A model generated the notes under the pieces. The model was not told the DNA's origin, made no database searches, and was given only the letters and a program-made list of their open reading frames with translations. This document shows positions 8,655 through 36,599 of a DNA stretch of 64,000 nt, piece after piece (within the stretch, counting starts at the first letter, position 1; each line of letters begins with the position of its first letter). The DNA is from Gammaproteobacteria bacterium (GTDB lineage: Bacteria > Pseudomonadota > Gammaproteobacteria > Burkholderiales > Gallionellaceae), in assembly GCA_018813765.1 (NCBI GenBank), contig JAHJBC010000001.1, positions 248,001 to 312,000 on the forward strand. The letters are read 5' to 3'. The translations under genes and the position numbers were made by a program.

Positions 8655-10712
8655 CTAGCGCTTGCGCAATATCCTGCGCACTACAAACCGGTAAATGCCA
8701 CTCCACCATGGTGTTGAAGCCGCGCCTTTTTCTCGCCACTCCAGCAATTCATCAAGAGCCCGTTCAGGCGTCGTGAATTTCCCGCTGCTGCGGCTGATAT
8801 AGGTTGGATACAGGATCAGAACTCCTGCCACCATCTCATCCAGTGTCAAGCGACGGGTACGGCGCGTGAACGGAATGACATCTTCGGTCAACCCCCAGCC
8901 CGCATAGAACGGTTGGCCGTAGCAGACCACTTTTTTACCGCGCAGCAATGCCTCGAACCCCGCCAGCGAAGTCAGCGTATGCACCTCGTCGACCGCCAGC
9001 AGCAATTCTCCCATGCTTGCACTCGTCAGCATCTCGTCGCCCCAGCGTGCTGCGCCATCCTCGCCCTGGCCTTGTCGCCGCAGCCCTGCCACCACATCGG
9101 GATGCGGCTTGTACACGATCCAGGCATCAGGATTCGCCTCACGCACAGCGCGCAACAACTCCAGATTGCGTCGAATGCCCGGTGCCCCATAGGCAAGAGA
9201 GGCATCCGACTCCACCTGTCCCGGCACCAGTATCACGCGACTTCGTCCGGCCGGCCGCTGCCAGACGGTCGTGCCGACGTTGTATTTGGTCAGCCCTTCG
9301 GCCACCAGAAGCGCCTGCAGCATACGGGCACGCCCCTTCAATGCATCATCAAAATGTGCTTGCTGCAGAATCAGTTCCAGGTCGGAAGGACAGGTCGCAT
9401 CGTAATAGATGCCGTTACCATCCATCACCCACGATAGAGGGCGCACCAGATCCGCACCCAGACCGACCGAACGGATGAACCCATCCTCCAGCCTCAATAT
9501 CTTCACACCCGTCTCTGCAACCGGCTTCCTTCCCCACACAGCCAGCGTGGCACCGGAAGGGAGCGCGGCATCCCTGCGCACGAACCTGACATCGCTGCCC
9601 TGGAAGAAACTGCGCACGATCTCGCGCTTGTAGATCGAAAATCCCTTTGCATACACGACCGATGGGAACCTCGCTCGCATACGCTTTTGCAATCCCATCC
9701 ATTCAAGCACGCGCTCAGCCTCGCAGCGCAAGCCGGTCTCGGGGTCGATATAGCGGGGATAGTCCAGCAACGCCGCATGCACCAGCGCTTCCAGTAACAC
9801 CGGCTTGCGTCGCTCCGGCACGGGTAGTTCGTCCTGGGTCAGACCCCAGCCGGCATAAAACGGCATGCCGAATGTGCGCACCGGTTTACCCCATAACAGT
9901 CCTTCGAAGCCGATCTGCGAGGTCACTGTGTAGACCGCTTCGGCATGTTCGAGCAGAGAGACCGGATGCACATCCTCGCCCAACACCTGCACGCGCGGTT
10001 CGCGCGCCAGTTGCGCCAGATCGAAATGCCCTCGTTTGCGCCCGGCCATCACTTCGGGATGAACCTTGAGCAACACGGTGCATTGCGGATGCTCCGCCAA
10101 CGCAGCTGCAAGCATGCACTGAAAACTTGTTTCGTCCGCTAGCCCGTAGCGGATTGACGCATCGCCGCGAGTCTGATCGGCCACCAGCACGTAGCGTGTC
10201 GGCAACTCGTGCTCATAATCGCGCGTGTGGTTGTACTTGGATATCCGCGCGGCCCGCCATGCGGCGACAAGATTTCGGGCTCGGGCAAAATGTGCTTCAG
10301 ATTGGACGGATGAGATCAGGGACTCGAGTTGCGAGGGGGCCGTAGCATCGTAATAGATGCCGGTATCATCAACGACGACGGAAAGCGGCGGCTCCTGCGC
10401 GCCCAAGCCAACTGAGCGAAGGAAACCGTCTTCCAGACGCAGTAAGGGCAGGCGGTTTCGGGCCGCAAACTCCGCCGCAGCCTCGGCGCTCGGTTTACGT
10501 CCCCAAGCGATAACACCGCCACAAACTGCCGCATCCCGAACCTCCCGGCGATACCGCACAGCATGGCCGAGCAGGGAGGGCAATCCGCGCAAATGAGCTA
10601 CTGCCCGCGAAACCGCGATCAGCGGGGCAGCACTCTGTCCAGCAGTGGGTGCGCGTTCCTGCAAGGTCTCAGTCCGCCGACTTACGCAGCCGCAACGACC
10701 AGATCGCTCCAA
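8655..10712 (-). CDS. kpsC: Capsule beta-Kdo transferase KpsC (two-module)
   Basis: About 685 residues contain two related modules. The first has AWGRKPSAEAA, LEDGFLRSVGLG and DDTGIYYDAT (about residues 68-130). The second repeats AVWGRKPVAE, LEDGFIRSVGLG and DGNGIYYDAT (about residues 395-460). Each module ends with the VHTLTSLAGFEALLRGKKV type of motif. KpsC extends the poly-Kdo linker with alternating linkages on lyso-phosphatidylglycerol. The coordinates use a TTG start that overlaps cysQ by 31 bp. A TTG at 10664, just after the cysQ stop, gives a length closer to known KpsC proteins, and neither has a strong ribosome site. Confidence 0.92.
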   Translation of the reverse strand: MERSGRCGCVSRRTETLQERAPTAGQSAAPLIAVSRAVAHLRGLPSLLGHAVRYRREVRDAAVCGGVIAWGRKPSAEAAAEFAARNRLPLLRLEDGFLRSVGLGAQEPPLSVVVDDTGIYYDATAPSQLESLISSVQSEAHFARARNLVAAWRAARISKYNHTRDYEHELPTRYVLVADQTRGDASIRYGLADETSFQCMLAAALAEHPQCTVLLKVHPEVMAGRKRGHFDLAQLAREPRVQVLGEDVHPVSLLEHAEAVYTVTSQIGFEGLLWGKPVRTFGMPFYAGWGLTQDELPVPERRKPVLLEALVHAALLDYPRYIDPETGLRCEAERVLEWMGLQKRMRARFPSVVYAKGFSIYKREIVRSFFQGSDVRFVRRDAALPSGATLAVWGRKPVAETGVKILRLEDGFIRSVGLGADLVRPLSWVMDGNGIYYDATCPSDLELILQQAHFDDALKGRARMLQALLVAEGLTKYNVGTTVWQRPAGRSRVILVPGQVESDASLAYGAPGIRRNLELLRAVREANPDAWIVYKPHPDVVAGLRRQGQGEDGAARWGDEMLTSASMGELLLAVDEVHTLTSLAGFEALLRGKKVVCYGQPFYAGWGLTEDVIPFTRRTRRLTLDEMVAGVLILYPTYISRSSGKFTTPERALDELLEWREKGAASTPWWSGIYRFVVRRILRKR

Positions 10713-11488
10713 TCGACTGCGCTTTTGCCGTGAACCACAAAGAACGGATTGAGCGTGACCGACGGATTAGCGTAGGAGATCGGCTCGCCGCACAGTTGGA
10801 TCACCTTGCCACCGGCCTGTTCCACCACGCACTGCGCGGCGGCGGTATCCCACAGCGAAGTCAGTCCCAGTCTCGGATAGACATCGGCACTGCCTTCCGC
10901 AACCAGGCAGAACTTGAGCGAGCTCCCCATCGAGATCAGCTCATGCGCACCCAGGCGCTGTAGCAGAGCGGGAAGGGAATCTCCCGCGTGGGAACGGCTG
11001 CCAACAACGCGCCATGTCGAACCTTCCGCATGCGTGGACACATGGATGGCGACGCGCTTGCCATCCGCCTCCACCTTGAAAGCACCCACGCCACGCGCCG
11101 CAAGATAGGCGACATCAAGCACCGGCGCATACACCACGCCCAGCACCGGGCAACCATTCTCGATCAGGGCGATATTGACGGTGAATTCGCCGTTGCGCTT
11201 AACGAACTCCTTGGTACCGTCGAGCGGATCGACCAGCCAGTAGCTGCCCATGCCGGTATGGCCCTTGAATTCACCCACCGCCTCTTCCGACAGGATAGGC
11301 AACGACGGTTGCAACTGCGCCAGACGCGCGACGATGAGATGGTGAGCCGCCTCATCCGCCTCTGTCAGAGGTGAACTGTCCGCTTTCTCCTGCACCGCGA
11401 AATCCCTGGCATAAACGACCATGATCGCCGCGCCCGCATCACGCGCGATACACTCGACCTGCTCAAGCAGCTTCATACCGACGTCCAT
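10682..11488 (-). CDS. cysQ: 3'(2'),5'-bisphosphate nucleotidase CysQ
   Basis: The 268-residue inositol-monophosphatase-fold protein shows the metal-binding motifs SEEAV, DPLDGTKEFVKRNGEFTVNI and the C-terminal LWDTAAAQCVVEQAGG. It hydrolyses 3'-phosphoadenosine 5'-phosphate (PAP), the by-product of PAPS-dependent sulfotransferases, to AMP and so relieves product inhibition. The gene begins 3 bp after cysC and runs into kpsC, so the three are very likely one transcript. In this setting its role is probably PAP clearance during polysaccharide sulfation rather than general sulfate assimilation. Confidence 0.95.
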   Translation of the reverse strand: MDVGMKLLEQVECIARDAGAAIMVVYARDFAVQEKADSSPLTEADEAAHHLIVARLAQLQPSLPILSEEAVGEFKGHTGMGSYWLVDPLDGTKEFVKRNGEFTVNIALIENGCPVLGVVYAPVLDVAYLAARGVGAFKVEADGKRVAIHVSTHAEGSTWRVVGSRSHAGDSLPALLQRLGAHELISMGSSLKFCLVAEGSADVYPRLGLTSLWDTAAAQCVVEQAGGKVIQLCGEPISYANPSVTLNPFFVVHGKSAVDWSDLVVAAA

Positions 11489-11491
11489 GCG

Positions 11492-12103
11492 CTACTCCCG
11501 CACGATGCCGCGTTCACGCAGCAGTGCCATCACTTTGGCAACGGAATCTTCTATGCTGAGAGTGCCGGTCTCGATGGCCAGCTCTGGATCGACCGGTGCC
11601 TCATAGGGAGACGAGATGCCGGTGAAGTCCTTGATCTCGCCGGCGCGGGCGCGCTTGTACAAGCCTTTTACATCGCGCTGCTCGCATACATCGAGCGGAC
11701 AGTGGCAATAGATCTCGAGGAAATCGCCATGCGGCACCAGTGAGCGCACGCGCTCGCGGTCGCTGCGGAACGGCGAGATGAAAGCCGTCAGCGCGATCAC
11801 TCCCGCCTCCACGAACAGCTTGGACATCTCGCCCACGCGGCGGATATTCTCGATGCGGTCCTCGGCCGAGAAGCCCAGATCGGCGCACAGCCCGTGGCGC
11901 ACGTTGTCGCCGTCCAGCACAAAGGTATGGCAATGCATCTTGTGCAACTCTTCTTCCACAGCATGCGCCAGCGAAGATTTGCCCGCACCCGACAATCCGG
12001 TGAACCACAGGATCACCCCGCCATGACCGTTCATCTCTTCTCGACGCTTGCGCGTCACCGTGGCGTTATGCCATACTACGTTGCTCGACTTTTTCTGTTC
12101 CAT
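11492..12103 (-). CDS. cysC: Adenylylsulfate (APS) kinase
   Basis: The 203-residue kinase has the P-loop [11 protein letters not shown], the APS-binding region [16 protein letters not shown] and [13 protein letters not shown]. It phosphorylates APS to PAPS in the cytoplasm. A strong GGGGAAG ribosome site precedes the ATG. ATP sulfurylase genes (cysDN or sat) are not in the window, so APS must come from elsewhere. Location directly ahead of cysQ and kpsC, and within reach of five sulfotransferase-like genes, points to PAPS supply for sulfated polysaccharide. Confidence 0.96.
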
Positions 12104-12266: not shown

Positions 12267-13265
12267 TTATTTCAGCAGATCGGCCGATGTACATGAGGCC
12301 GATTCCTCCAATTTTTTGGATTCTACCTCAGCATTGCGCAACAGACCCTGCCGAAATGGCTCATCCAGGGCCAGGCGCAGGATGGCGGCCACCCAATCCT
12401 CCAGCCGTAACGGGACGATCAGCCCCTGCACCTCATGTTCTACAATCCCGGAATATGCATCGCCCGGTGTATAGATACCTACCGCTCCGCTGCGCGTGAT
12501 GTCGAAGAATTTGGTATATGAGCGTGCCTGATTGAACGGCAGATCCAGCAACGGCGCCAGTCCGATATGCCGCCCCGGTGTGGCAATGTAGGACTGATAT
12601 GCAGGCCACTTCATTGGGTGTACCACATTTACGCGCGGCAGGCCGCGATACAAACGGTATACATCCTGCCCGCCGATGAGTTCGAATGCGATGCGCTCGT
12701 CGCTATGCAGCACCTCCTCCATCACCGGGCGCAGCCAGCGGATCTCGGCATCATGCGAGGCCGAGCCGTGGTAGAACACGCGGCGCACATCCGCCGGGTT
12801 CGCCAATGGCGCGGGCAGCACCAGCCGGGGACCCCAAGCCGCATACTTGTGCAGCAGGTACGGCGTAGACACCCACAACCGCGCCTCCATCCTCTGTAGC
12901 CACTCCCGCCGCCGCACCGACAATCGCCACAACTTGTAGCGGTAGCGTAGCGGCATCCCTGCCGAAGCGCCGGCATCGAGCACATCATCGTCCATGAAGA
13001 AGACCAGCGCGCGCAGGGAAGGACGGACCGACTCGACCAGGCGCATCCATGCTGTCGGCACATAGCGGATGAAAACCACCGTCGCCCCGACCAGTTCGGC
13101 CGGAGCGGGCAGTTCGGCGAAGCCGCAACGCATGACATTGCATGCGACACGCGAAACGGCGGGTAACACGAAGAAATCGGTGGAAGGATTGGGTTGCTCC
13201 TCGACCAGATACAGCCTGGCGACCTCGCCTGTCTTTTCCATGTCCGGCATATTCACTCCCGCCAT
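12267..13265 (-). CDS. Putative glycosyltransferase (GT-B fold, GT1/GT4-like)
   Basis: The 332-residue protein lacks a signal peptide. The N-terminal half contains VVFIRYVPTAWMRLV and a pair of acidic positions in FFMDDDVLDAG. The C-terminal half has FYHGSASHDAEIRWLRPVME, IGLAPLLDLPFNQARSYTKFFD and SGAVGIYTPGDAYSG, which resemble the donor side of GT4-type glycosyltransferases. The start has a GGAG site and overlaps the upstream GT2 gene by 13 bp. Donor and linkage are unknown. A 163-bp gap (12104-12266) separates it from cysC and holds nothing recognisable except the cysC ribosome site. Confidence 0.65.
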   Translation of the reverse strand: MAGVNMPDMEKTGEVARLYLVEEQPNPSTDFFVLPAVSRVACNVMRCGFAELPAPAELVGATVVFIRYVPTAWMRLVESVRPSLRALVFFMDDDVLDAGASAGMPLRYRYKLWRLSVRRREWLQRMEARLWVSTPYLLHKYAAWGPRLVLPAPLANPADVRRVFYHGSASHDAEIRWLRPVMEEVLHSDERIAFELIGGQDVYRLYRGLPRVNVVHPMKWPAYQSYIATPGRHIGLAPLLDLPFNQARSYTKFFDITRSGAVGIYTPGDAYSGIVEHEVQGLIVPLRLEDWVAAILRLALDEPFRQGLLRNAEVESKKLEESASCTSADLLK

Positions 13266-15412
13266 GGCTTCTCCACCATCGGCGCATGACTCAGGGAAAA
13301 ATCCGGTCGTTCATGGCTCAGGTTCGGGTTGTAATAGGGATCGTTCTGCAGCACCCGTTTCCAGCGCTTGCGCATATAAGCCACCTCTCGTCTGGCGCGT
13401 CGTTTCTTTTCCGGGGTCAGGTCTTTTCCGCGCGACACGGACTCGTGATGATACAACTCCGCATAAGGTGTCCAAACCACCCGATAGCCAGCCTCACGCA
13501 CACGCAGGCAATAATCAACATCGTTGAATGCCACCTGAAGGTGTTGCTCATCCAAACCACCTAATTCCTGATACAGGCTGCGCCATGTCAACATGCATGC
13601 AGCCGTCACAGCAGAAAGATCCTGCGCCGCCACAGCCCTGTTACAGTAACCCGGATTGGCGCGTTGCTGATATGCATGTGCATGATTGGCAATCCCGCCC
13701 ACACCGATCAAATCGCCGCCATGTTGAATTCGGCCATCCGGGTAATACAACTTTGCGCCTACCACCCCCACTTTGGTCTGAAGCAAATGTCCCAGCATTT
13801 CCTCCAGCCAATCCGGTGTGATGACCTCAGTATCGTTATTTAACAGGCACAACACCTCGCCTTGCGCCCGCCGAGCCGCAAAGTTATTGATTGCTGAAAA
13901 GTTGAATGGCGCATCAAAGTGCAGTACCCGCACTCTCATATCCTCGCCAACGGCCGCCAAATAGCCAAGCGCTTCAGGGTCCTTACTCTGATTGTCAATG
14001 ATAAGAATTTCATAATCCTGATAACGGCTCTTCTGCAATATGCTATCTACACATCGCTTGAGTAATTCAAGGCCATCGCGCGTCGGAACCAGAATGCTGA
14101 TCTTGGGCAATTTTTGTGGGAGGGCATAACGTACCCGGTAGACACCCGGAAAGGTCTCGTTCACAGATGCCTCGATCCCAAGACGAGACAGGTGCGCAGC
14201 AACGACTGCCGCCCCCCCCGCCTCCTCATTCCGAACGCGACGATGAATAAGGATTGCCGGAACATGACAGATACGCTCTGCCGAAAGCCCTTCGCTAACG
14301 CGCAACACAAGGTCGTGGCCATTACCAAAAACATCCGTCTCTCCCAGTCCGCCGGCCCGGATCAATTCGTCCGCCCGGTATACCGCCAAATGTCCAATAT
14401 ATTTTGTCGAGCGTAACAACTCTGGCGACCAGTCCGGCTTGAACTTCGGATCGCGACGCTCACCACCTGCTTCAATACTGTCTTCATCGGTGTAGATCAA
14501 CCCAGCCGCAGGAGAGGAGTTGATCACATTCGCAATCCAGTAAAGCGCATGCTCCGGCAATACATCACCGGCTTGAAGGATGGTGACATACGTATTGCTT
14601 TCCTGAAAAGGAATCCATGAACCAATCTGGCCATGATTCAAGATACAGACCTCGAAATTCCGGTACAACTGATTTTGAATGGAGTCCAGCGTGAGCTCTA
14701 CGCAGACGTTACCCTCTGTTGGTACAGCAACAAGCAATACAAACCGCGGTGAGACGGTAAAACGGTTGATGTGACGGTCAATCAATATTCGGTCTGCTCT
14801 GGAAAGGGTATCTGCATACTGTATCCATTGCGGATAAGTCGGAGCAGATGCATAAGTCCGCAGTTTCCCAGCAGCGGCATAGGCACCGGCCAGATCGAAA
14901 ATTGGGCGAGAAAATCCGAGACCGATCAGTTTCAGTTTCAAGAGTGGCTGACGCCATAGAACCGGCACGATACGCCTCAACATGCGAAATATTCGTTCTT
15001 TGGCCCCAATTGTTCGCATACAAAATGGAGATCGCAATATAGCGGGATACGAACGGGTTGGTGCCCACTGCATACCGACAATACCTCGCGGCAAAAAAAA
15101 CAGCTCAGGGGTAGAACCTTTGCGGGTTACAGGCACATCCACAGCGCACTCATCGCTATAACCGGCACCGACATCATAGAATAGTCTGGTCGTATGGTCT
15201 GCTTCATGGCTGGTAAAACAGGCCTCGATCGATACCCAGCCACAGGGCCAAAGTCCATTGGACGGTTCGATAACGAAGCGTTGGCTCAACTTCACGGGCA
15301 TATCGCTTGCAATTCGAGATCCTGAACTTTCAGGATCGAATGCCTGTCGAATCTGAAGATCGCATACCTGACGAAATACCTGCTGAAAGAATCTACTTGT
15401 CCCTGTTACCAT
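13253..15412 (-). CDS. Glycosyltransferase family 2 protein with two GT2-like modules
   Basis: The 719-residue protein has a divergent GT-A-like module at about residues 220-420 (VLLVAVPTEGNVCVELTLDS, LIYTDEDSIEAGG). A canonical GT2 module starts near residue 435 (PKISILVPTRDGLELLKR), with LLNNDTEVITPDWLEE as the metal/donor site and a C-terminal acceptor segment (LHHESVSRGKDLTPEKK-like). The organisation matches large GT2 proteins that build O-antigen or capsule chains. It leads the minus-strand operon that includes cysC, cysQ and kpsC, and diverges from the giant fusion gene at 15589. Two homopolymer tracts (T/A8 at 15093-15100, G/C8 at 14212-14219) lie inside it and are read in frame here. 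Confidence 0.85.
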   Translation of the reverse strand: MVTGTSRFFQQVFRQVCDLQIRQAFDPESSGSRIASDMPVKLSQRFVIEPSNGLWPCGWVSIEACFTSHEADHTTRLFYDVGAGYSDECAVDVPVTRKGSTPELFFLPRGIVGMQWAPTRSYPAILRSPFCMRTIGAKERIFRMLRRIVPVLWRQPLLKLKLIGLGFSRPIFDLAGAYAAAGKLRTYASAPTYPQWIQYADTLSRADRILIDRHINRFTVSPRFVLLVAVPTEGNVCVELTLDSIQNQLYRNFEVCILNHGQIGSWIPFQESNTYVTILQAGDVLPEHALYWIANVINSSPAAGLIYTDEDSIEAGGERRDPKFKPDWSPELLRSTKYIGHLAVYRADELIRAGGLGETDVFGNGHDLVLRVSEGLSAERICHVPAILIHRRVRNEEAGGAAVVAAHLSRLGIEASVNETFPGVYRVRYALPQKLPKISILVPTRDGLELLKRCVDSILQKSRYQDYEILIIDNQSKDPEALGYLAAVGEDMRVRVLHFDAPFNFSAINNFAARRAQGEVLCLLNNDTEVITPDWLEEMLGHLLQTKVGVVGAKLYYPDGRIQHGGDLIGVGGIANHAHAYQQRANPGYCNRAVAAQDLSAVTAACMLTWRSLYQELGGLDEQHLQVAFNDVDYCLRVREAGYRVVWTPYAELYHHESVSRGKDLTPEKKRRARREVAYMRKRWKRVLQNDPYYNPNLSHERPDFSLSHAPMVEKPWRE

Positions 15413-15588
15413 TAGCCAATGTCCCGATCACAATTTTCCCAACCCGTATGAACGGATTGTCCTACATTTATCGGCCGACCGTTACATGTCCGGTCCATAC
15501 TCCTGCTACATCCTCGCGACCATCCCAAACATTTCCGTATAATGCGCGGGTTTTCAAAAAATATTGATCAGAACAACTGGAGCCGAGT

Positions 15589-18500
15589 TTGTCCACGCCT
15601 AAGATAGGAATATTGGTCGCCGGAATGCACCGTAGTGGCACCTCGGCTGTCGCAAGATTGTTAAATATCCTGGGAGCAGCAGTACCAGGCAATCTAATGC
15701 CCCCCCATGCGGAGATTAACGCCAAAGGCTTCTGGGAATCATTTGATGTCTCTTCCCTGAACGACGCACTACTGGCAGGCCATCGCTCTCGCTGGGATGA
15801 CGTGCTCTCCATCCCTCTCGACGAACCTGGACAGGACAGTTGGCAGGACTTTGAAAGCAAGGCTACTGGACTGCTTGAGCGCGATTTCCTGCATGCGGAC
15901 ATGTTCGTGCTGAAGGACCCGCGCATCTGCCGCCTGCTGCCCTATTGGATACGCCTGTTCGAGCGTCTCTCAATCGAACCGCGCATCGTCATCCCGATCC
16001 GGCATCCACTCGAAGTCACTGCCTCACTAAAGCGTCGCGACAATTTTCCGGAAGAGAAGTCACTCTACTTGTGGCTACACCATTTAGTAGATACCGAGCG
16101 CGCCACCCGGAACGTGCCGCGCACTTTCATCCACTACGAGGATTTACTGGAGAATTGGCAAGATACGTGTGCACGTATCGCCAGCGAGCTGGGAGTAATC
16201 TGGCCTAACTCACCTGATTCGATCAAGGATGAAGCGAACGCCTTCCTGGATTCGCAATTGCGCCACCACCGCCGCGAGATCGATCAGCTGGCAGATACCT
16301 CCGCGATAGCGAAGTGGTCCAAAAAGCTCTATCTGGCATTGCAGCACAGTGATCGCGACATCTCATCTCTCATTGACCGAATCTATGCAGACATCGCCCC
16401 TGCGGAAGCGATGCTGGCGCCGATGCTTCAGGATACATTCAGGCAGCTCAAACAGATCGAGCACTCTTTCGCCGAATCCAAATCTTGGGGCAGCGAACTT
16501 GATACAAACCTTAAAAAAGCGCAGCAAGAATTCAATCGGCTTAGCCTTGAGTTCGACGAAAAGACCTATCACGTCGGGTTGCTGCAAGATGAAACTGCGC
16601 AACTCAAGGCGTCGCTTTCCTCGGCGGCTAATGCACTCGACGCACGCAATTCTGAACTGAAGAACACGCAGCAGGCATTCAAGCAGCTTGCCGACGAGAG
16701 CGATACGAAATCCCTGCATGTCAGCATGCTCTTGGAAGAAGCCGCGCAACTCAAGGCATCGCTTTCCTCGGCGGAAAATGCACTCGACGCACGCAATATT
16801 GAACTGAAGAACACACAGCAGGCATTCAAGCAGCTTGCCGACGAGAGTGACGCGAAATCCCTGCATGTCAGCACGCTCTTGGAAGAAGCCGCGCAACTCA
16901 AGGACTCTCTCGCCGCCACGCAGGAGTTGCTTGTTGTCCGCACTACTGAGCTCCAGGATTCCAAACAAAAACTATCTGCCTCGAACTCCACGAACCAAGC
17001 CGGGCTGTTCCTGCTGCAAGGTGCCACCCGCCGCATAACCGAGGCCGACGCAGCCATACACACGCTAATCGCCGCACAAGGCCAGCACAAACGCCGCGCC
17101 GCGTTCTGGAAAAGGAATAAGGACCTCCGTCTGCTGGAAAACACGCCGCTGTTCGACAGCGCGTTTTACCTTTCCTCTCATCCGGAAGTACTCTCATCGG
17201 GGTTTACGCCGCAAGAACACTACCTGAAGCTCGGAGCCGGCAGAGGTTGGGATCCGCACCTCCTGTTTAGCACAAGCTGGTATCTGGAGAAATACCGAGA
17301 TGTCGCCCAGCGGGGAATGAACCCCCTAGTGCATTTCCTGCGCTGCGGTGCAAAAGAAAAGCGGTCGCCGCACCCGTTGTTCGACATAGAGCTGTATCAA
17401 TCAGCCTATCCGCAGGCTGCCACATCCGGCATGAATGCGCTCGAACATTACCTGCAGATTGGCGGTCCGAATGGCTTCCGTCCCCATTGGTTGTTCGACG
17501 GAAAAGCCTATCTGGAGGCCTACCCGGAAGTCAGGGAAACAGGCAGCAACCCGCTGTTGCACTACCTGCAAATCGGACACCTCAAAAACTACCGCCCTCA
17601 CTGGGCTTTCGATCCAACCTATTATCTGGGTCAAATTCAAAGTGTGGTCGAGCCGGGGGTGCCAGCGCTACTGCATTTTGTCACCAAGGGCGCAAAACTG
17701 CGAATGAACCCGAGTGCGGAATTCGATACCGCCGCATTCTTGCAGCAATATCCATTCCTCGAATCCTGCAATGAGAATCCGCTGGAATATTACGTACAGG
17801 CACAAGACAACCAGGCAGTGTTCAACCCTCCTGCTTTATCCTCTCCCATAACAAGCGTCGAGGTACCTACCACACCAATCCACAACGAAGAGCCCGGAAG
17901 CCCGTTGCCCGCTTTCATGGACTTTCTCTATGACGAATTTGGTGAGGTGTTGCGAACCGAGATCATCTCCCGCATGCAACGCTTTCACTTGCCGTTTACG
18001 AGCGAAAAGATCGCCCCCAAGCCGGCAGAAAACGATATCCCCTTGTGGCTTGAGGAGATCCACTCGCTCTCGAACGCTGCTCCGACAACCGTGCAACCGG
18101 ATGTCTCCATCGTCATCCCGGTGTACAACCAGCTCCCATTCACGCTGGCCTGCATTCATTCCGTGCTGTCATCCAGAACAAATTACAGCTACGAGATCAT
18201 CGTTGCCGATGACCGTTCCACCGACCGGACCACCGACATCTTCTCGCAGGGCGTCGGTCGGATACGCCATGTACTCGGCGAACAGAATCAGGGTTTCATC
18301 CGCAACTGCAACAATGCCGCAAAACATGCCAGGGGCCGTTATCTCGTCCTGCTCAACAACGACACTATCGTACTGCCGGGTTGGCTGGATGAACTGATCG
18401 GCACGCTGGATACCGATCCCGACATCGGGCTGGTCGGCTCCAAACTCCTGTACCCGGATGGTCGACTGCAGGAATCCGGCGGCATCATTTTCGGTGACGG

Positions 18501-20013
18501 TTCTGGCTGGAACTATGGCCGCATGGACGATCCCCGCAAGCCACAATACTGCTACATGCGTGACGCCGACTACGTCTCTGGCGCCTCGATCGCCCTGCGC
18601 ACCGAATTCTGGAACGATGTCGGCGGTTTCGACGAACGATATTCCGTCGCCTACTACGAAGACACCGACATGGCCTTCCGCGTGCGGCAGGCCGGTTTGC
18701 GTGTCGTGGTCCAACCGCTTTCCCAACTCCTGCACTTCGAGGGCATCAGTTCCGGCACCGACACCAGCAGCGGCGCAAAGCAATACCAGTTGACCAATGC
18801 CGTGATATTCAAGGATAAATGGAGCGGCATGTTGGCAGACCATGGCCAATGCGACCCAAAGCGTTTGCCCGCCGATCGCACCACGCGTTACAGCATACTG
18901 GTTGTCGATGCCTGCACCCCGACACCGGATCGCGACGCCGGATCGCTTGAGACATTCCAGCATTTGCGCATTCTCAGGTCATTCGGATTCCACGTCGTCT
19001 TCGCCCCGGAAAATCTTGCTTATTTCGGCCGCTACACGCAAGACCTGCAGCGTATGGGCATAGAGACGCTATACGCCCCATACTGGATGTCATTCGAGGA
19101 GGTGTTGAAGAAACTTGGAAGTTCGTTCGAACTGGTCATGATCTACCGAGCGCCGGTTGCCAACCGCCTGATCGACCTGGTTCGCAACCATGCTCCCCAG
19201 GCAAAAATTATTATTGACACTATTGATCTTCACTTTCTCCGCGAAGAAAGGGAGGCTGCACTACATAACGACCCTGAGAAAGTACAAACAGCCGCAGCAA
19301 CCCGCAGGAAGGAACTCAATATCATCGAGCATGCAGATGCCACTATTATTTTGAGCAGCCACGAAATGGGCATCGTTCAGGATCTGCTCCCAAAGGCAAA
19401 GCTGTATGAGATCCCTATCGTGTGCAAAACCCCTGGGAAAGGGCCGCTCAGCCACTCCCAACGCAAGGATATCGTCTTTATTGGCGGCTTTCGGCATGCC
19501 CCGAATCTGGACGCGGTCAAATGGTTTGTCTCCGACGTATGGCCGCATCTCCTTGCCAAGGGATTCACCGGCAATTTCCACATCGTTGGTGCCGACATGC
19601 CGAATGAGATCACCAGAATGCACGGGGCGGGCATCATTGTGCGGGGTCACGTCCCCGATATCGCCGACGTATTCAACGAGGTTCGCGTTTCCGTCGCACC
19701 GTTAAGATTCGGCGCGGGTCTGAAGGGCAAAGTTATTTCCAGTCTGAGTTTTGGCGTACCAGTTGTTGCGACCTCCGTTGCCGTGGAGGGCGGGGGCTTC
19801 ACTCACGAGGGAAATGTGCTTGTTACCGACGATCCGGAAACATTCGCCGATTCGATCATACGGCTTTATGACGATCCGTTAATGTGGGAGAATCTTTCGC
19901 AGAACGGTGTCGCCCATTGCAACCGCAGCTTTTCGGTATCGGTGGTAACTGCCAAGTTCCGCCACTTGATCAACGATATCGCGCCAGAACTCAAGCTCGA
20001 ACCTGACGAATAA
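15589..20013 (+). CDS. Multidomain protein: sulfotransferase, coiled coil, GT-associated repeats, GT2 and GT4 domains
   Basis: This 1474-residue protein starts at TTG 15589 with a GGAG site six bases upstream; no better ATG fits. Residues about 8-260 form a P-loop sulfotransferase domain, with the PAPS 5'-phosphosulfate loop GMHRSGTSAVARLLNILG and the 3'-phosphate motif VIPIRHPLEVTASLKRRDNF. Residues about 290-480 are coiled coil and include a 49-residue tandem repeat. Residues about 520-735 hold roughly six copies of a 46-residue repeat of the type (L)FDxxxYLxxxPEVxxxGxxPLxHYLxxG seen in large glycosyltransferases. Residues about 838-1090 are GT2 (VSIVIPVYNQLPFTLACIHS, LLNNDTIVLPGWL). Residues about 1150-1460 are GT4-like (DIVFIGGFRHAPNLDAVKWF). 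One polypeptide could therefore extend and sulfate a glycan. Acceptor and donors are unknown. Confidence 0.85.
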   Translation: MSTPKIGILVAGMHRSGTSAVARLLNILGAAVPGNLMPPHAEINAKGFWESFDVSSLNDALLAGHRSRWDDVLSIPLDEPGQDSWQDFESKATGLLERDFLHADMFVLKDPRICRLLPYWIRLFERLSIEPRIVIPIRHPLEVTASLKRRDNFPEEKSLYLWLHHLVDTERATRNVPRTFIHYEDLLENWQDTCARIASELGVIWPNSPDSIKDEANAFLDSQLRHHRREIDQLADTSAIAKWSKKLYLALQHSDRDISSLIDRIYADIAPAEAMLAPMLQDTFRQLKQIEHSFAESKSWGSELDTNLKKAQQEFNRLSLEFDEKTYHVGLLQDETAQLKASLSSAANALDARNSELKNTQQAFKQLADESDTKSLHVSMLLEEAAQLKASLSSAENALDARNIELKNTQQAFKQLADESDAKSLHVSTLLEEAAQLKDSLAATQELLVVRTTELQDSKQKLSASNSTNQAGLFLLQGATRRITEADAAIHTLIAAQGQHKRRAAFWKRNKDLRLLENTPLFDSAFYLSSHPEVLSSGFTPQEHYLKLGAGRGWDPHLLFSTSWYLEKYRDVAQRGMNPLVHFLRCGAKEKRSPHPLFDIELYQSAYPQAATSGMNALEHYLQIGGPNGFRPHWLFDGKAYLEAYPEVRETGSNPLLHYLQIGHLKNYRPHWAFDPTYYLGQIQSVVEPGVPALLHFVTKGAKLRMNPSAEFDTAAFLQQYPFLESCNENPLEYYVQAQDNQAVFNPPALSSPITSVEVPTTPIHNEEPGSPLPAFMDFLYDEFGEVLRTEIISRMQRFHLPFTSEKIAPKPAENDIPLWLEEIHSLSNAAPTTVQPDVSIVIPVYNQLPFTLACIHSVLSSRTNYSYEIIVADDRSTDRTTDIFSQGVGRIRHVLGEQNQGFIRNCNNAAKHARGRYLVLLNNDTIVLPGWLDELIGTLDTDPDIGLVGSKLLYPDGRLQESGGIIFGDGSGWNYGRMDDPRKPQYCYMRDADYVSGASIALRTEFWNDVGGFDERYSVAYYEDTDMAFRVRQAGLRVVVQPLSQLLHFEGISSGTDTSSGAKQYQLTNAVIFKDKWSGMLADHGQCDPKRLPADRTTRYSILVVDACTPTPDRDAGSLETFQHLRILRSFGFHVVFAPENLAYFGRYTQDLQRMGIETLYAPYWMSFEEVLKKLGSSFELVMIYRAPVANRLIDLVRNHAPQAKIIIDTIDLHFLREEREAALHNDPEKVQTAAATRRKELNIIEHADATIILSSHEMGIVQDLLPKAKLYEIPIVCKTPGKGPLSHSQRKDIVFIGGFRHAPNLDAVKWFVSDVWPHLLAKGFTGNFHIVGADMPNEITRMHGAGIIVRGHVPDIADVFNEVRVSVAPLRFGAGLKGKVISSLSFGVPVVATSVAVEGGGFTHEGNVLVTDDPETFADSIIRLYDDPLMWENLSQNGVAHCNRSFSVSVVTAKFRHLINDIAPELKLEPDE
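16597..16905 (+). repeat. 147-bp in-frame tandem repeat in the coiled coil
   Basis: The segment GCGCAACTCAAGG recurs at 16597, 16744 and 16891, a period of 147 bp or 49 codons. The first two units are nearly identical and a third begins before the sequence diverges. Each unit encodes an AQLKASLSSAxNALDARN... heptad-rich stretch, so copy-number change would lengthen or shorten the coiled coil without breaking the frame. Confidence 0.9.
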
Positions 20014-25278: not shown

Positions 25279-26118
25279 CTATCTGTCAGTGAACGATGCG
25301 CCGAACCTGTTTTCGACCTCGGACAGTATCTCTTCGTCACTTGCCAAGGGGACACGCATCGTTTCCGGGAACAGCTGTTGCGCAATGCGGTATACCATAA
25401 CATCCTGCCAAGCTGCATGATCGAGCAACTCCAAGAATTCCTGTTGCGATCCAAGTTTGCCAAAGTTGACATTGTTATCGCTCTTGTTTTTCCACACCTC
25501 TTTAGTCTGCGGGATAAAACCTCGAGCATGCAGATCGTCCAGGACTTTCTGATTTGAACAGGCATAGATCGCATCCAGGCGACGCAATCCATTCTCGACT
25601 ATCTCGATAAATTCTTTGCCGGGATTGCTCCGATCCTGCTTTTCTGCGATTGCGACAAACCCTTCGATATCCCCTAACAGAAGCATTGCAGCTTCGTTTA
25701 CGGGTTTTCTATGATTCATGAAATCACTAAAGCCCATATTGGCATACTGCTTCAGCTTGGGATATTTGTGCACAACCTGTGGCGAGTTAGCCCTCTTCTC
25801 CGCGTATGTGAACAATGAAATCACTCTTTTCCGCGGATCTCGCAGCACTGTAAATATGAATTTCCTGTTCAGGCGTATAAGGTCACTGTAGGTGATATGA
25901 CCTGGCACGTAAGGCATGTTGCGCGCAAGCTTAAAGGCCAGAGTACCCTCGACGATTGTGTTCCATGGACTCTTTTGTTCTACCGTACTGTTGCGCGGCG
26001 CGAGCATGGACACATGAAATGGCTGGAGCTCAAGCGCCAAAAAGATACTTTCATTCAGCGATGAACCGGCGCATTTCGGAACATGCAAGAAACCAAGATG
26101 GGGGGGGGTATTGAACAC
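25279..26118 (-). CDS. Sulfotransferase family protein
   Basis: The 279-residue protein shows LGFLHVPKCAGSSLNESIFL, the PAPS P-loop of Sulfotransfer_2-like enzymes, and FIFTVLRDPRKRVISLFTYA, the 3'-phosphate-binding motif. The start used is GTG 26118. Directly after it, codons 4-7 contain a run of nine C on the coding strand (nine G at 26100-26108). Gain or loss of one base there would abolish the protein, so expression could be phase variable. It is the last gene of the minus-strand A+T-rich block. Acceptor unknown. Confidence 0.85.
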   Translation of the reverse strand: MFNTPPHLGFLHVPKCAGSSLNESIFLALELQPFHVSMLAPRNSTVEQKSPWNTIVEGTLAFKLARNMPYVPGHITYSDLIRLNRKFIFTVLRDPRKRVISLFTYAEKRANSPQVVHKYPKLKQYANMGFSDFMNHRKPVNEAAMLLLGDIEGFVAIAEKQDRSNPGKEFIEIVENGLRRLDAIYACSNQKVLDDLHARGFIPQTKEVWKNKSDNNVNFGKLGSQQEFLELLDHAAWQDVMVYRIAQQLFPETMRVPLASDEEILSEVENRFGASFTDR

Positions 26119-27541: not shown

Positions 27542-27560
27542 CCAGGTGAAAATGCAAAGA

Positions 27561-28769: not shown

Positions 28770-28794
28770 TGGAAACGTCTTTCGTTGATTGCAA

Positions 28795-30735: not shown

Positions 30736-30978
30736 TTACCGCAATTTTTTCTGGATTAAGTCAATCAATTCCCCTACATTCTTGACATCTGTTGTCTCTT
30801 CAGGTTCAAAACGAATATTGAAAGTTGGCTCAAGAGATATTAGTAGTCTTACATGGTTAAGACTATCCCAGTCGGCCACATCATCCGCCCTGGTTTGCTC
30901 GCATATCTTCAATGAATTATTGTCTAATATTTCTATGAGGGTTCTTTGTATTGTTTCTAATATGGTGGTTCTGCTCAT
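30736..30978 (-). CDS. Acyl carrier protein
   Basis: The 80-residue acidic helical protein has the 4'-phosphopantetheine attachment motif ADWDSLNHV, with the Ser about residue 38. Length and helix pattern are standard for a stand-alone ACP. It heads the minus-strand group, with fkbH next, so it is the likely carrier of the glyceryl unit. A 216-bp gap upstream (30979-31194) separates it from the end of the broken glycanase and is A+T rich; a promoter for this group probably lies there, but no clean -35/-10 pair can be defended. Confidence 0.92.
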   Translation of the reverse strand: MSRTTILETIQRTLIEILDNNSLKICEQTRADDVADWDSLNHVRLLISLEPTFNIRFEPEETTDVKNVGELIDLIQKKLR

Positions 30979-32750: not shown

Positions 32751-32798
32751 ACTTTAAATTCGGCTATTTGTTAATACTAAACGCATCAGGGCGAAAAT

Positions 32799-33671
32799 TT
32801 ACACTGAGTAGTTGGCCCAGATTCTCTTTATGAACTCTTCAGAAAACCTGTTGGCACAAAAACTGTAAACAGAATCGTAGTACCTCCTTGCTTGCGCTAC
32901 CACTTCCTTATTGGCTTCCTGCTCAAGTTTTGGTGCTGAATTGACTCTCTTACTAAAATCAGCGGGCACATGATCGATGTTTAAAAAGTCACAAAGCCTT
33001 CCAATTTCCGATGTCTCAAATAGCGTCTCATAGAAGCCATAAAAAATATCATTGGGATCGAATACTGATTCCAAATTTGTAATGGTCTTATCGTAGTTCG
33101 TTCTGAGAGCTACATTCTTGTTTGTATAAAAATCAATGCCATGCAAATTGATTGGATTTTGAACACGCCCCCTTGCGTTCCCTTTTGCAATCATCCTTTG
33201 CTGCGACTGAATCCTGTCAATCGGATCTCGCATCAAAAATATGATTTTCAGATGGAAATCAGACAAGAGCGTCTTAATCCTTCCGTAGTGTTCTACGCCG
33301 AGTGCGGCATAAGTAGGAGATATTTCACCCACGGCCTTTATGCCCTCTCGACTAGATGCAAGGCGAGAAAAATAGTGGCTATATCCAGACAAGTCGTGAT
33401 AGATGTTCAATCGATCTAACTCATGCCGAAGATTGGCATTAAGGTGAGGCAAATAATGTTTATCGTTTATGACTCGTGTTAATTCTGCATGCGCCTTCGA
33501 CAAGCTCTGCTTATAAAATAATCCGAACACTTCTGGAATGAACATTGCATCAAAGATGTGCATCTCTTTTGTTGGCGACATCATTACATCTGGATGTGTT
33601 TCCAAATAGCGGAATAGCCATGTTGTGCCTCCTTTTTGGCAACCAACGCCTAAAATAAAAGTGGGTTTCAT
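32799..33671 (-). CDS. Sulfotransferase domain protein
   Basis: The 290-residue protein begins FILGVGCQKGGTTWLFRYLE, the PAPS P-loop of the Sulfotransfer_1 type. IIFLMRDPIDRIQSQQRMIA follows as the 3'-phosphate motif, and the C-terminal basic region ends EEFIKRIWANYSV. A GGAG ribosome site precedes the ATG. No signal or membrane segment is seen. It follows a GNAT-free stretch of 181 bp (33672-33852) with no recognisable element. It is one of five sulfotransferase-like domains in the window and lies in A+T-rich DNA. Confidence 0.88.
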   Translation of the reverse strand: MKPTFILGVGCQKGGTTWLFRYLETHPDVMMSPTKEMHIFDAMFIPEVFGLFYKQSLSKAHAELTRVINDKHYLPHLNANLRHELDRLNIYHDLSGYSHYFSRLASSREGIKAVGEISPTYAALGVEHYGRIKTLLSDFHLKIIFLMRDPIDRIQSQQRMIAKGNARGRVQNPINLHGIDFYTNKNVALRTNYDKTITNLESVFDPNDIFYGFYETLFETSEIGRLCDFLNIDHVPADFSKRVNSAPKLEQEANKEVVAQARRYYDSVYSFCANRFSEEFIKRIWANYSV

Positions 33672-33852
33672 TCTTTACTCCATAAGCAAATTTATTGTAA
33701 TAGAACCACCTCGCTGACAATGCTTGCTTGGGCCTTCAGCGAGAATACATTGTTAAAGTGGCTGTCCTGTTTACCGTTGCCAGTTTGCTAATACAGCGCA
33801 GGCACGCATGGATCAAATCAATTCCAACCAGTTTTATTCTGGCACGTCATGT

Positions 33853-34434
33853 CTATTCCCGTGCACGGTTTACAGTTCGCAAGTATTCAATCTCCAGCTT
33901 AAGCAAGTCTTGCTTCCGGTTCTTAATCCTGCGCACTGGCACACCTGCGTAGACACCCCAGGGCTCTACTCCTTTGTTGACCAATGATAGCGCCCCGATT
34001 GCACTACCTTCACCAATAGTCACACCTGGCAGGACTACTGTTCCTGCGCCAACAATCACGTGTCTGCCGAGTACCACTGGCGCTCGTTCTACATGCTTAA
34101 AGTGTTCAGGAATGGTTGGATTGGTCAACGTCTCGCCCGAATAATCATCCGAGACCGAATATATCGAGACCCTTGAAGACAAGTTGCAGAAATCGTGTAA
34201 TTCAATCCCGCCACCGCCGAACAATGCGGTATAGGCAGCCACATGTATATTGGAGCCTAGCGATATTTTCCCGCTCAGGATACAGAAGTCATCAATGCGG
34301 ACGTTGTCGCCCAATTGAATTTGCTCTGCTGCGTAGATTGAACATTTGCGACTGATGCAGACATTGCTCCCGATTTTGGCAAAGCCTATACCACTCAATT
34401 CGTCGAGAGAATAATGTGCTGCCTGCTTGCTCAT
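33853..34434 (-). CDS. Acyltransferase with hexapeptide (left-handed beta-helix) repeats
   Basis: The 193-residue protein is built of hexapeptide repeats (IGSNVCI, LGDNVRIDDFCIL, LGRHVIVGAGTVVLPGVTIG, EGSAIGALSLV) and ends with the WbbJ/NodL-like GVYAGVPVRRIKNR. Such enzymes transfer acetyl from acetyl-CoA to sugar O- or N-atoms in the cytoplasm. It is 9 bp downstream of the unknown 445-residue gene and in the same orientation as the sugar aminotransferase gene, so N-acetylation of an amino sugar or O-acetylation of the chain are both plausible. Confidence 0.88.
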   Translation of the reverse strand: MSKQAAHYSLDELSGIGFAKIGSNVCISRKCSIYAAEQIQLGDNVRIDDFCILSGKISLGSNIHVAAYTALFGGGGIELHDFCNLSSRVSIYSVSDDYSGETLTNPTIPEHFKHVERAPVVLGRHVIVGAGTVVLPGVTIGEGSAIGALSLVNKGVEPWGVYAGVPVRRIKNRKQDLLKLEIEYLRTVNRARE

Positions 34435-34443
34435 CTCAATCGC

Positions 34444-35781
34444 CTACTCAATATCACCGCTGATCAGGCGGGGCAAAGCAACTTGTTCGGATAATTCAAA
34501 TGGACTGAGTTCACTGGTCGGGATATCAGCATATTGCTTGAACCATCCCTGCTTCGACACCACTTCCGGGGCTGCAACATCCAGCACTCTGCCCAAATCG
34601 AAGAAACGGACAATTGAATCTGTGAGAGCCGGCACAAGAGTTTCTTGCATGCTCAAGCCCAACACAGGCGCAAGCACTGCTGACTGGGTCAGCACCGTGA
34701 CCCGTTTATGCTTTGTCAGTATCTTTTGCATCAAAGCAAGATAGATTGGGAGACTCGCCCTCCAGGTTTCGTGAGCCCAACTTCCTGGAATTATCATTTT
34801 ATAGATTGGAGTATTTATGCCTTTCAGCGTGATATTTCTCAAATGGGGCGGCACAACGAACAGAAGCGCGTCGGCATCGCAGGCAAATTTCTCTATCAAC
34901 TGGCTTGTTTCCCGGTTGTCTATCAGGCTCTTTGCCTCAGAACCGTCTCCCAGGATCAGCGGAGCCAGCTTAGTCACCGATTTGAAGAATGTCAGCGCAC
35001 CCGCCATCGCGGCTCTCGACACCGGAGTCAATGGATTTTTTAATGTAATAGCACAGGGGCTTTCTCCGGCACAAAAACTGATCGACAAACGTTGGGAAAT
35101 TTTCCGACCGGACATGTCCGAATTTTTCGGATCAACGGTTTGTTGCAGCACATGCGCCAATATCCCGTCAAATCCGCTTGCAGAATATCGTAATACATAT
35201 CCTTCTCTCTCTAGCGCGCGATATTCGCCGGCCGCAGAGCGTTGCGCAAATGAAGTCGCATAGACTGAGAGGAAATGCTCCCAATACCCATGGTTTATTT
35301 TTGTAAATACAAAACTCTCGTCACGCGGTGACGAGAGTAGGCTTTTATAGGCAATCTGAAATTGATCCGTCACGGCCGATTTTAATTCGGCATCAGCTAG
35401 CGATGAGTAGTAATTCCCCTCTGGAATGAAACATTCCCGCAACGAGGTATCCAATTTGAATTTGGAATACGTCTGCTCAAACAGGGCCTTTGGATATTTG
35501 CCCTCACCCAGTCCGCGAAAAATTTCGCTGATCGCTTCAGCGCTAGGATCAAAACCATTCGTCAATCCAGCATGCATAGCCCCATAGAAATGATCCGGAT
35601 TTGACGATGCGCGCATTGGTAAGGCCTGAATGAATTTCTTAATTCGCCCTGCGTCGTCAATATATCTCCACATTTCCGGTGACATACCAAAAGTGGCTGC
35701 CATGTTCGGGTATTTTTCTATGGATTTTAGGCCGCTATAGAACAGTTCCGAAAGTAGCTGCATTGTCTTTGCGCTTTCCAT
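34444..35781 (-). CDS. Protein of unknown function (445 residues)
   Basis: I do not recognise the family. The translation has no signal peptide or clear membrane helix. The N-terminal half is helical and polar. The C-terminal half (about 235-400) alternates beta and alpha elements, for example ADALLFVVPPHLRNITLKG, YKMIIPGSWAHETWRA and VTVLTQSAVLAPVLG, which looks like a Rossmann-type nucleotide- or sugar-binding domain. The ATG has an AAGG site. It lies between a sulfotransferase and an acetyltransferase with gaps of about 10 bp, so it most likely belongs to polysaccharide modification or assembly. Confidence 0.6.
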   Translation of the reverse strand: MESAKTMQLLSELFYSGLKSIEKYPNMAATFGMSPEMWRYIDDAGRIKKFIQALPMRASSNPDHFYGAMHAGLTNGFDPSAEAISEIFRGLGEGKYPKALFEQTYSKFKLDTSLRECFIPEGNYYSSLADAELKSAVTDQFQIAYKSLLSSPRDESFVFTKINHGYWEHFLSVYATSFAQRSAAGEYRALEREGYVLRYSASGFDGILAHVLQQTVDPKNSDMSGRKISQRLSISFCAGESPCAITLKNPLTPVSRAAMAGALTFFKSVTKLAPLILGDGSEAKSLIDNRETSQLIEKFACDADALLFVVPPHLRNITLKGINTPIYKMIIPGSWAHETWRASLPIYLALMQKILTKHKRVTVLTQSAVLAPVLGLSMQETLVPALTDSIVRFFDLGRVLDVAAPEVVSKQGWFKQYADIPTSELSPFELSEQVALPRLISGDIE

Positions 35782-35792
35782 GGTGCCTTCGC

Positions 35793-36599
35793 TTAACCCC
35801 TGCGCGCCAACAGGTCATCCTTGGTGAACTCACGGCGCGTTTTATGCGTATGGACGTTCAATTTAATCCCATCCTTCTTGGGCAAAGCAAGCCATTCCGA
35901 AATTTCACCCCAAATTTCCGGGTTGTTGAGTTGCCCAACGAAAAGTGCGTCAGGTGCAAATGAACCAAAAAATGCCTTCACTTCGTTCGTGTGTCTTTCA
36001 TACGCACTTTTGTAGTGACTCGCCTTGTCGAACACGGTCATCGCTTGCGCAGCCGCACCATTGAAACCTTTAATATTCTTTTGGAGCCACAAGAGATCGT
36101 CCTCGCGGCGATAAATTTTTGCATGGATGTCGGTTATACCCAAAGAAAAACCGTTGGAATGGCTGATCATCGATTTGAACCATGCGTCAGAATCGCGCGT
36201 TAACAGGATGAACCTTGAATCTGGAACCTTGTGAAATACGTATTTGAAAAAGTCCGGGCACCACCATGGATCATCCTCAAAGACATCATGGTCACGAAAT
36301 ACTTGATCTTGAAATATGGCATCATAGTTTCCGTTCAACCAATGTTTGGTCCAGTTCTTGGATCTGCTCAGAGGGTGGCCGGCACGCCTGTATCCCCATT
36401 GTTCCAGAAAATCGCCTACAGATGACGTTCCGCTTCGTTGCATCGACAGGCAAAATATCTTTCCCTTGATACCGATGTCTTCCAATTTCAATGCTACTTC
36501 ATTACCCATCAGTTCCTCACTTGTTTTCAATTTCCCAATTTTCGAAAATATTGTCGCCAGTATTCCCACGACACCCACCGCCCTTCGTGTATTCGTCAT
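35793..36599 (-). CDS. Sulfotransferase family protein
   Basis: The 268-residue protein (from ATG 36599) has KIFCLSMQRSGTSSVGDFLE as PAPS P-loop and FILLTRDSDAWFKSMISHS as 3'-phosphate motif. The ATG overlaps the aminotransferase stop by four bases, and an upstream ATG at 36629 would extend it further into that gene. The spacing between the two motifs is shorter than in the neighbouring sulfotransferases, and it resembles the Sulfotransfer_4-like branch. Acceptor unknown. Confidence 0.82.
   Translation of the reverse strand: MTNTRRAVGVVGILATIFSKIGKLKTSEELMGNEVALKLEDIGIKGKIFCLSMQRSGTSSVGDFLEQWGYRRAGHPLSRSKNWTKHWLNGNYDAIFQDQVFRDHDVFEDDPWWCPDFFKYVFHKVPDSRFILLTRDSDAWFKSMISHSNGFSLGITDIHAKIYRREDDLLWLQKNIKGFNGAAAQAMTVFDKASHYKSAYERHTNEVKAFFGSFAPDALFVGQLNNPEIWGEISEWLALPKKDGIKLNVHTHKTRREFTKDDLLARRG

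Follow-up and report, generated by a model that had tools for sequence, protein, structure and literature searches.

The locus described here lies in a 64,000-nucleotide stretch of a Gallionellaceae genome (Gammaproteobacteria bacterium, GCA_018813765.1, contig JAHJBC010000001.1, here C4:248001-312000), which is called the window below. It combines genes of an ATP-binding cassette (ABC) transporter-type capsule with genes for making the sulfate donor 3'-phosphoadenosine 5'-phosphosulfate (PAPS), for removing 3'-phosphoadenosine 5'-phosphate (PAP), and for several sulfotransferases. The best explanation, with a probability of roughly 0.7, is that this group 3-like locus specifies a capsule glycan with sulfate esters. 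Genome-wide searches were performed on the 3.14 Mb assembly (13 contigs, 99.76% complete), and sulfotransferase calls were judged against the Pfam gathering scores. The genes that carry this reading are listed by position in the window, with scores in bits.

6639..7928, minus strand: kpsS, transferase of the 3-deoxy-D-manno-oct-2-ulosonic acid (Kdo) linker (Capsule_synth 289.3)
8655..10712, minus strand: kpsC, Kdo-linker transferase of ABC-type capsules (Capsule_synth 291.6, in four stretches; true start probably inside the frame)
10682..11488, minus strand: cysQ, 3'(2'),5'-bisphosphate nucleotidase, removes PAP (TIGR01331 291.6, cut-off 228.8)
11492..12103, minus strand: cysC, adenylyl-sulfate (APS) kinase, makes PAPS (Pfam APS_kinase 227.7; NCBIfam apsK 271.1, cut-off 138.7)
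12267..13265, minus strand: protein adjoining cysC, glycosyltransferase-like by eye only, no Pfam family (relative at the same place in G137, G022, G089 and G023)
13253..15412, minus strand: glycosyltransferase with a family-2 domain in its C-terminal half (Glycos_transf_2 74.5; relative in the same four genomes)
15589..20013, plus strand: fusion of an N-terminal sulfotransferase (Sulfotransfer_3, residues 8-206, 29.9, cut-off 27), a long linker and two glycosyltransferase domains
20162..20968, plus strand: probable sulfotransferase, the weakest of the five (Sulfotransfer_2 18.3, cut-off 22)
25279..26118, minus strand: sulfotransferase (Sulfotransfer_2 27.7, cut-off 22)
32799..33671, minus strand: sulfotransferase (Sulfotransfer_3 49.5, cut-off 27)
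35793..36629, minus strand: sulfotransferase (Sulfotransfer_4 63.3, cut-off 22.8)
38556..43184, minus strand: kpsD, kpsE, kpsT (41371-42390) and kpsM, capsule exporter (KpsT motif-degenerate)

Capsule frame, PAPS supply and sulfotransferases

Both Kdo-linker transferases of an ABC-type capsule locus are present, KpsC and KpsS, each above the Capsule_synth cut-off of 20 bits; KpsS scored 438.4 with the NCBIfam KpsS model, under the equivalog cut-off of 600. The exporter components KpsM, KpsT, KpsE and KpsD of a group 2/3 capsule locus were all found. KpsM, KpsT and KpsD exceed the Pfam cut-offs (ABC2_membrane 40.6, ABC_tran 48.8 and Poly_export 52.1, respectively). KpsE has no Pfam match and scored 298.8 with the BexC/CtrB/KpsE model of NCBIfam (cut-off 437.5), and the NCBIfam score of KpsM (125) is also under its cut-off of 300.

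The initial annotation had placed cysC and cysQ 3 bp apart and running into kpsC, and these coordinates are correct; the longest kpsC frame and the cysQ frame have 31 bp in common. CysQ scored 266.7 with a second CysQ model (NF008182), under the cut-off of 379. CysC is the sole convincing APS kinase of the genome. Another APS_kinase match on contig C12 (22 bits, 49 of 152 positions) was rejected, and is probably FtsY with an FtsE-like gene beside it. Two genes of the inositol-phosphatase family are present in the genome, the CysQ of the locus and one on C12. The reported absence of cysDN and sat from the window also holds. The cysteine pathway genes CysH, CysD and CysN are located on C6, which has the only CysH/CysD-family matches, and a separate ATP sulfurylase (Sat) is found only on C12.

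The CysH protein of C6 looks like an enzyme of the APS-reductase type. It scored 261.5 with the APS_reductase model (cut-off 235.3) and 158 with the PAPS_reductase equivalog (under the cut-off of 254.2). Its closest solved structure is the APS reductase 2goy (197.1 bits); the best chain named as a PAPS reductase is 7lhr (121.7 bits). CysH also carries the CC...CxxC cysteines, which we take to be a mark of the APS-reductase type, and by model cut-off and motif together it belongs with the thioredoxin-dependent APS reductases. If CysH is of this type, the cell should be able to make cysteine without PAPS, which leaves sulfation as the expected task of CysC. PAPS is thus probably made for sulfation and not for cysteine; the CysH type and the patchy presence of CysC led us to discard a routine part for cysC in cysteine synthesis. 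A PAPS supply dedicated to sulfation is well supported. The module had been called dedicated, which is appropriate for sulfation; it is not appropriate for the capsule alone, because four sulfotransferase-like genes lie outside the five of the locus.

Five sulfotransferase domains with both PAPS motifs had been proposed within 21 kb. Four of them pass the Pfam cut-offs, and the domain at 20162 stays below. The 5'-type and 3'-type PAPS motifs could be read by eye in all five domains, which are presumably of the PAPS-binding type. The fusion protein at 15589 contains its glycosyltransferase domains at residues 840-965 (Glycos_transf_2) and 1293-1429 (Glyco_trans_1_4). In the PDB sequence search, the protein at 32799 matched the sulfotransferase 3rnl (E 1.4e-6 over 48 residues) and, less well, heparan sulfate 3-O-sulfotransferases (E 0.011 or weaker); no match up to E 5 was obtained for 20162 or 25279. 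Relatives of 20162 occur in 6 of the 369 genomes of the class that were searched, its own included, and phage records gave no match for it. Both motifs are kept in all four homologues read (L171, L172, L173 and L174, with L175 left out). Among these, L174 passes Sulfotransfer_2 (26.9), L173 and L171 are under the cut-off, and L172 has no match. The locus appears to encode at least four sulfate-attaching enzymes, and probably five.

Genome-wide profile searches gave four places for Sulfotransfer_1 (E to 0.001), four for Sulfotransfer_3 (E to 0.1) and two for Sulfotransfer_2 (E to 1), which merge into seven distinct ones for these three Pfam models. Adding 20162 and 35793 brings the total to nine sulfotransferase-like places, five of them within 21 kb. 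When nine points were placed at random in the genome 200,000 times, five never fell within 21 kb, so the clustering is not due to chance.

Some of the other places were inspected. The gene at C4:237853 (L094:9706-10626, minus strand), about 10 kb upstream of the window, encodes a sulfotransferase (Sulfotransfer_1 24.0, cut-off 22) and is surrounded by a sugar locus with NeuB-like and aminotransferase-like genes, as judged by eye. Two fusions of the tetratricopeptide repeat (TPR) type, L096:9452-11572 and L097:8947-10620, are built of repeats, recognized by eye, with a sulfotransferase domain at the C-terminus. Strong Sulfotransfer_3 matches in long frames are common among the matches listed for the Gallionellaceae.

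Recurrence in the Gallionellaceae and in other bacteria

The co-occurrence of CysC and sulfotransferases was counted in 158 genomes of the family. CysC matches were found in 105 genomes and Sulfotransfer_3 matches in 99, the latter also taking in TPR-type fusions; 53 genomes, some of them incomplete, have no CysC match. Sulfotransfer_3 is present in 89 of the 99 genomes with a good CysC, and in 10 of the 59 without (Fisher p ~7e-21, with no correction for phylogeny or for genome incompleteness). Left out of this count are six weak, partial matches to CysC (G131, G015, G019, G029, G042 and G113); when they are kept in, the numbers are 91 of 105 versus 8 of 53.

Among the best 30 family loci, own included, KpsC lies by CysC in 5 and CysQ in 16. 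The closest relative by CysC is G137 (89%), which belongs to the same genus. The order kpsC-(cysQ)-cysC-12267-13253 is found at one side of the locus in G137, G022, G089 and G023, and kpsD-E-T-M follows beyond a variable region. Both kps blocks are on one contig in G022, G089 and G023; in G137 each of them is close to the end of a separate contig, and the locus was joined by inference. A sulfotransferase-like gene occurs in the locus of all four of these other kpsC-cysC genomes, and exceeds the Pfam cut-off in three: G137 (Sulfotransfer_3 66.5), G022 (Sulfotransfer_2 78.9 and Sulfotransfer_4 93.2) and G089 (Sulfotransfer_2 24.1). The G023 gene is just under it (21.2, cut-off 22). The N-termini of giant proteins in G089 and G023 share 35% and 41% identity, respectively, with the N-terminal sulfotransferase domain of 15589, with no Pfam sulfotransferase match there, and two further G022 proteins are sulfotransferase-like by eye, with no Pfam match. 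In G038 the exporter is on a different contig from CysC, which is accompanied there by CysQ and a sulfotransferase (48.9, cut-off 22). A natural contrast to the kpsC-cysC genomes is G096, which has kpsSC and kpsMTED, is absent from the CysC and Sulfotransfer_3 match lists, and showed no sulfotransferase in the five locus proteins scanned.

The kpsC-linked CysC proteins were also considered as a single clade. All six distinct ones fall in one group of 16 rows with support 93/74, below the starred level. No single origin is claimed because of this support and because other CysC proteins lie inside the group. The best reading is a sulfated ABC-type capsule locus, built on the plan of the published marine Cobetia and Vibrio loci. 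It is new for the Gallionellaceae, and of a kind that is already known.

The wider comparison of CysC covered the best 80 of 561 confirmed relatives (L007-L086), with many loci cut by contig ends. KpsC occurs in three of these loci (L007-L009) and CysQ in seven. Outside the family, L009 has cysC-cysQ-kpsC, with no sulfotransferase seen by eye; L010 has a Pfam-confirmed sulfotransferase directly before cysC-cysQ, and in L014 two such genes lie on the strand opposite to cysC-cysQ, at a distance of 5-7 kb.

In the same best 80 of 561 loci, a manC relative was found in 17, and manC, gmd or fcl (at least 40% identity) in 21, including loci from Methylococcales, Zetaproteobacteria and others. Since many of the 21 come from taxa with non-marine names, sulfated glycans may be commoner than described. 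Such capsules had been regarded as rare outside marine bacteria, which fits the literature found; these 21 loci and the synechan of the freshwater cyanobacterium Synechocystis qualify this view.

Predicted pathway, the exporter ATPase and alternative explanations

The other genes of the window are as follows.

94..3577, minus strand: fcl, gmd and manC, GDP-mannose to GDP-fucose (fcl just under the equivalog cut-off, 493.6 versus 500)
21060..22010, plus strand: GDP-mannose-4,6-dehydratase-like sugar nucleotide enzyme (GDP_Man_Dehyd 335.6; gmd model 306.7, under the cut-off of 415)
22062-22937, plus strand: WcbI-like gene (WcbI 93.7, cut-off 29.2)
22934-24019, plus strand: GSCFA-family gene (GSCFA 171.6, cut-off 25)
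26609-27541, minus strand: methyltransferase (relative in L007)
27561-28865, minus strand: acyltransferase-like protein, weak (relative in L007)
28795-30711, minus strand: FkbH-domain protein (relative in L007)
30736-30978, minus strand: carrier-protein-like gene, weak
33853..37969, minus strand: block of a hexapeptide acyltransferase, 34444-35781, the sulfotransferase at 35793 and a DegT aminotransferase
43340..47441, plus strand: rmlB, rmlA, rmlC and rmlD, dTDP-rhamnose synthesis

The relatives of the FkbH, acyltransferase-like and methyltransferase genes stand in the same order in L007, which is from the same genome as G137. The FkbH, carrier-like, acyltransferase-like, WcbI-like, GSCFA and hexapeptide genes suggest further acyl decoration of the glycan. 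The gene at 34444-35781 (minus strand), between the sulfotransferase and the acyltransferase, encodes a protein of 445 residues with no convincing Pfam family. At 31195-32750 (minus strand), a glycoside-hydrolase-5-like frame and the next frame, which has a bacterial immunoglobulin (Ig)-like domain, resemble one split gene; a run of eight T lies near this pair at 31844-31851. Promoter and terminator scans of 15300-15700 found nothing.

These genes would fit the following pathway. APS would be made elsewhere in the genome by CysDN or by the second sulfurylase Sat, and phosphorylated to PAPS by CysC. The sulfotransferases of the locus, one of them fused to glycosyltransferases, may then move sulfate in the cytoplasm onto sugars of the growing capsule chain, presumably onto oxygen. 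The chain would probably contain rhamnose and mannose/fucose-type sugars, with GDP-mannose/fucose and dTDP-rhamnose as precursors (manC, gmd, fcl and rmlBACD). CysQ would hydrolyse the released PAP; KpsC and KpsS would build the Kdo linker, and KpsM/T/E/D would act as the exporter. The capsule had been described as heavily O-sulfated and of the ABC type. The PAPS-making and PAP-removing pair and the several sulfotransferases in an ABC-type locus, similar to published loci, agree with a sulfated capsule; the word "heavily" was dropped, because the number of genes gives no degree of sulfation.

Several observations weigh against this reading, and the first of them concerns the exporter. KpsT (41371-42390, minus strand) keeps the Walker A motif but has lost three others, namely the signature, the catalytic glutamate that follows Walker B and the switch histidine; all three are intact in the six family relatives read (G137, G022, G023, G089, G038 and G096). 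An E151Q change in Walker B of a studied KpsT abolished capsule detection (PMC11041684). The KpsT of the window shows 40-47% identity to five of the relatives (G089 excepted), compared with 62-83% among those five, and has diverged more than the neighbouring exporter proteins. A smaller gap of this kind is seen for KpsM (53-56% versus 60-80% among the relatives), a slight one for KpsE (58-65% versus 59-81%), and no clear gap for KpsD (63-73% versus 62-83%). A KpsT relative (E<=1e-30) was found in 8 of the 158 family genomes, own included, among them G006 with 33% identity. No other close KpsT was found in the genome, where the next long matches are ABC proteins of 27-32% identity, with higher values only over short stretches. 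As judged from sequence, the motif loss puts export in doubt in this genome. Normal capsule export might therefore be lost from a sulfation-competent locus, so that the glycan is not displayed at the surface, is moved by another engine, or belongs to a locus decaying from the exporter outwards. This is a possibility to be taken seriously, although we consider it unlikely. The open kpsT frame spans 339 codons and has a C-terminal extension also present in G137, G022 and G038, and for these reasons it is not an obvious pseudogene; the frames of kpsD, kpsE, kpsM, kpsC, kpsS and the sulfotransferases are likewise open. Moreover, ABC proteins with degenerate sites can still act. A more speculative proposal, which we hold to be quite doubtful, is that KpsT binds but hardly hydrolyses ATP and is retained by selection. 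Export of the sulfated glycan would then follow a non-canonical cycle, or the glycan would stay at the inner membrane; in the wider family, the PAPS-capsule module would give cells a polyanionic coat for dealing with iron(III) at their surface.

Other points concern the acceptor and the purpose of PAPS. Bound sulfate on the capsule is a prediction from the genes, and the protein at 20162 is both under the Pfam cut-off (18.3 versus 22 bits) and without a usable structure model (single-sequence model, mean pLDDT 33.8, a predicted confidence score). Four sulfotransferase-like genes lie outside the five: the gene at C4:237853 in the neighbouring sugar locus 10 kb upstream, the pair of TPR-type fusions (C1 and C12), and a borderline match (C7). 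In addition, sulfotransferase families do not fix the acceptor. The enzymes of the locus could thus act mainly off the capsule chain, on a lipid anchor, lipopolysaccharide, a small molecule or a protein, as may hold for the TPR-type fusions. This is improbable, since the five sit between kpsSC and kpsMTED, one of them forms a single protein with glycosyltransferase domains, and relatives also carry sulfotransferase-like genes between these kps blocks. CysH also scores above the cut-offs of two models named for the reduction of phosphoadenylyl sulfate (NF002537, 281.2 versus 154; TIGR00434, 189.9 versus 165.1), and cysC-cysQ occurs with no kps genes near in G028 (where manC follows), G059 and G036. 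The locus itself contains an FkbH protein and a carrier-protein-like gene, and the loading of carrier proteins releases PAP. It could accordingly be argued that cysC and cysQ work in cysteine synthesis or in the general disposal of PAP, and are in the capsule locus by chance. We regard this as very improbable: CysH is closest to APS reductases, PAPS seems dispensable given the 53 family genomes without a CysC match, and CysC tracks the sulfotransferases in the family. The last correlation has exceptions. Ten of the 99 CysC genomes, G023 among them, have no Sulfotransfer_3 match, and ten genomes have Sulfotransfer_3 but no good CysC. No CysQ relative was found in the 40 kb read of G089 and of G023. 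A sulfated ABC-type capsule remains the preferred explanation of the locus.

Comparison with known sulfated polysaccharides

The Gallionellaceae are mostly freshwater iron oxidizers (PMC10734462, PMC12607638). For sulfation in this family, the open-licence literature yielded only the sulfotransferase of Gallionella ES-2 (PMC3770913). The main text of the pangenome paper does not contain "sulfotransferase", "capsule" or "polysaccharide" (PMC10734462), the marine-Gallionella paper does not contain "polysaccharide", "capsule" or "cysC" (PMC12607638), and the Ferriphaselus paper has "sulfotransferase" once, in an unrelated use (PMC11044966). If the present reading is true, genetically encoded capsule sulfation reaches from marine strains to a mostly freshwater family of iron oxidizers. 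A polyanionic sulfated coat would also bear on iron(III) binding and on the avoidance of encrustation, a role of exopolymers that is given only as speculation (PMC3770913). As cysteine synthesis seems to do without the PAPS branch here, sulfation could be manipulated cleanly through cysC. Several sulfotransferases whose glycan context is defined, and an unusual KpsT, are further assets of these loci.

Gallionella ES-2 belongs to the same family and has the sulfotransferase Galf_1285 in an exopolymer cluster, where the authors noted possible substitution (PMC3770913). Its cluster differs in having a single sulfotransferase, and the polysaccharide section names no PAPS or kps capsule genes (PMC3770913). 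Synechocystis PCC 6803 is also a bacterium that makes a sulfated surface polysaccharide; its synechan is a cyanobacterial exopolysaccharide, unlike the capsule predicted for the window (PMC8205485).

The hallmark of a sulfated-polysaccharide cluster is the presence of PAPS-synthesis and sulfotransferase genes together (PMC11641403). The locus has cysC and cysQ with four sulfotransferases above the Pfam cut-off and one below. In-locus cysDN, which is outside the stated hallmark but present in both published loci, is absent here. Vibrio sp. KMM 8419 shares ABC-type export, in-locus PAPS genes and several sulfotransferases with the window, and its structure contains sulfated rhamnose (PMC11641403). 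Its in-locus cysC, cysN and cysD are second copies (PMC11641403), whereas the window has the sole convincing cysC of its genome, with cysDN elsewhere.

The capsule locus of Cobetia marina KMM 1449 has several features in common with the window: a kps exporter of the group 3 type, kpsSC, cysQ flanked by PAPS genes, sulfotransferases, the synthesis of dTDP-rhamnose and GDP-mannose, and wcb-type genes (PMC11766843). The sulfate of that capsule is on rhamnose (Rha2S) (PMC11766843). There are also differences between the two loci. In C. marina, kpsSC is opposite to the exporter genes, whereas both kps blocks of the window are on the minus strand; the C. marina locus has its own cysD, a fused cysN/cysC, a sulfate permease and wcbPQRT, whereas the window has only cysC and cysQ (PMC11766843). 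The window is in turn distinguished from the C. marina locus by its WcbI-like gene, the five sulfotransferase-like domains, the sulfotransferase-glycosyltransferase fusion and the degenerate KpsT.

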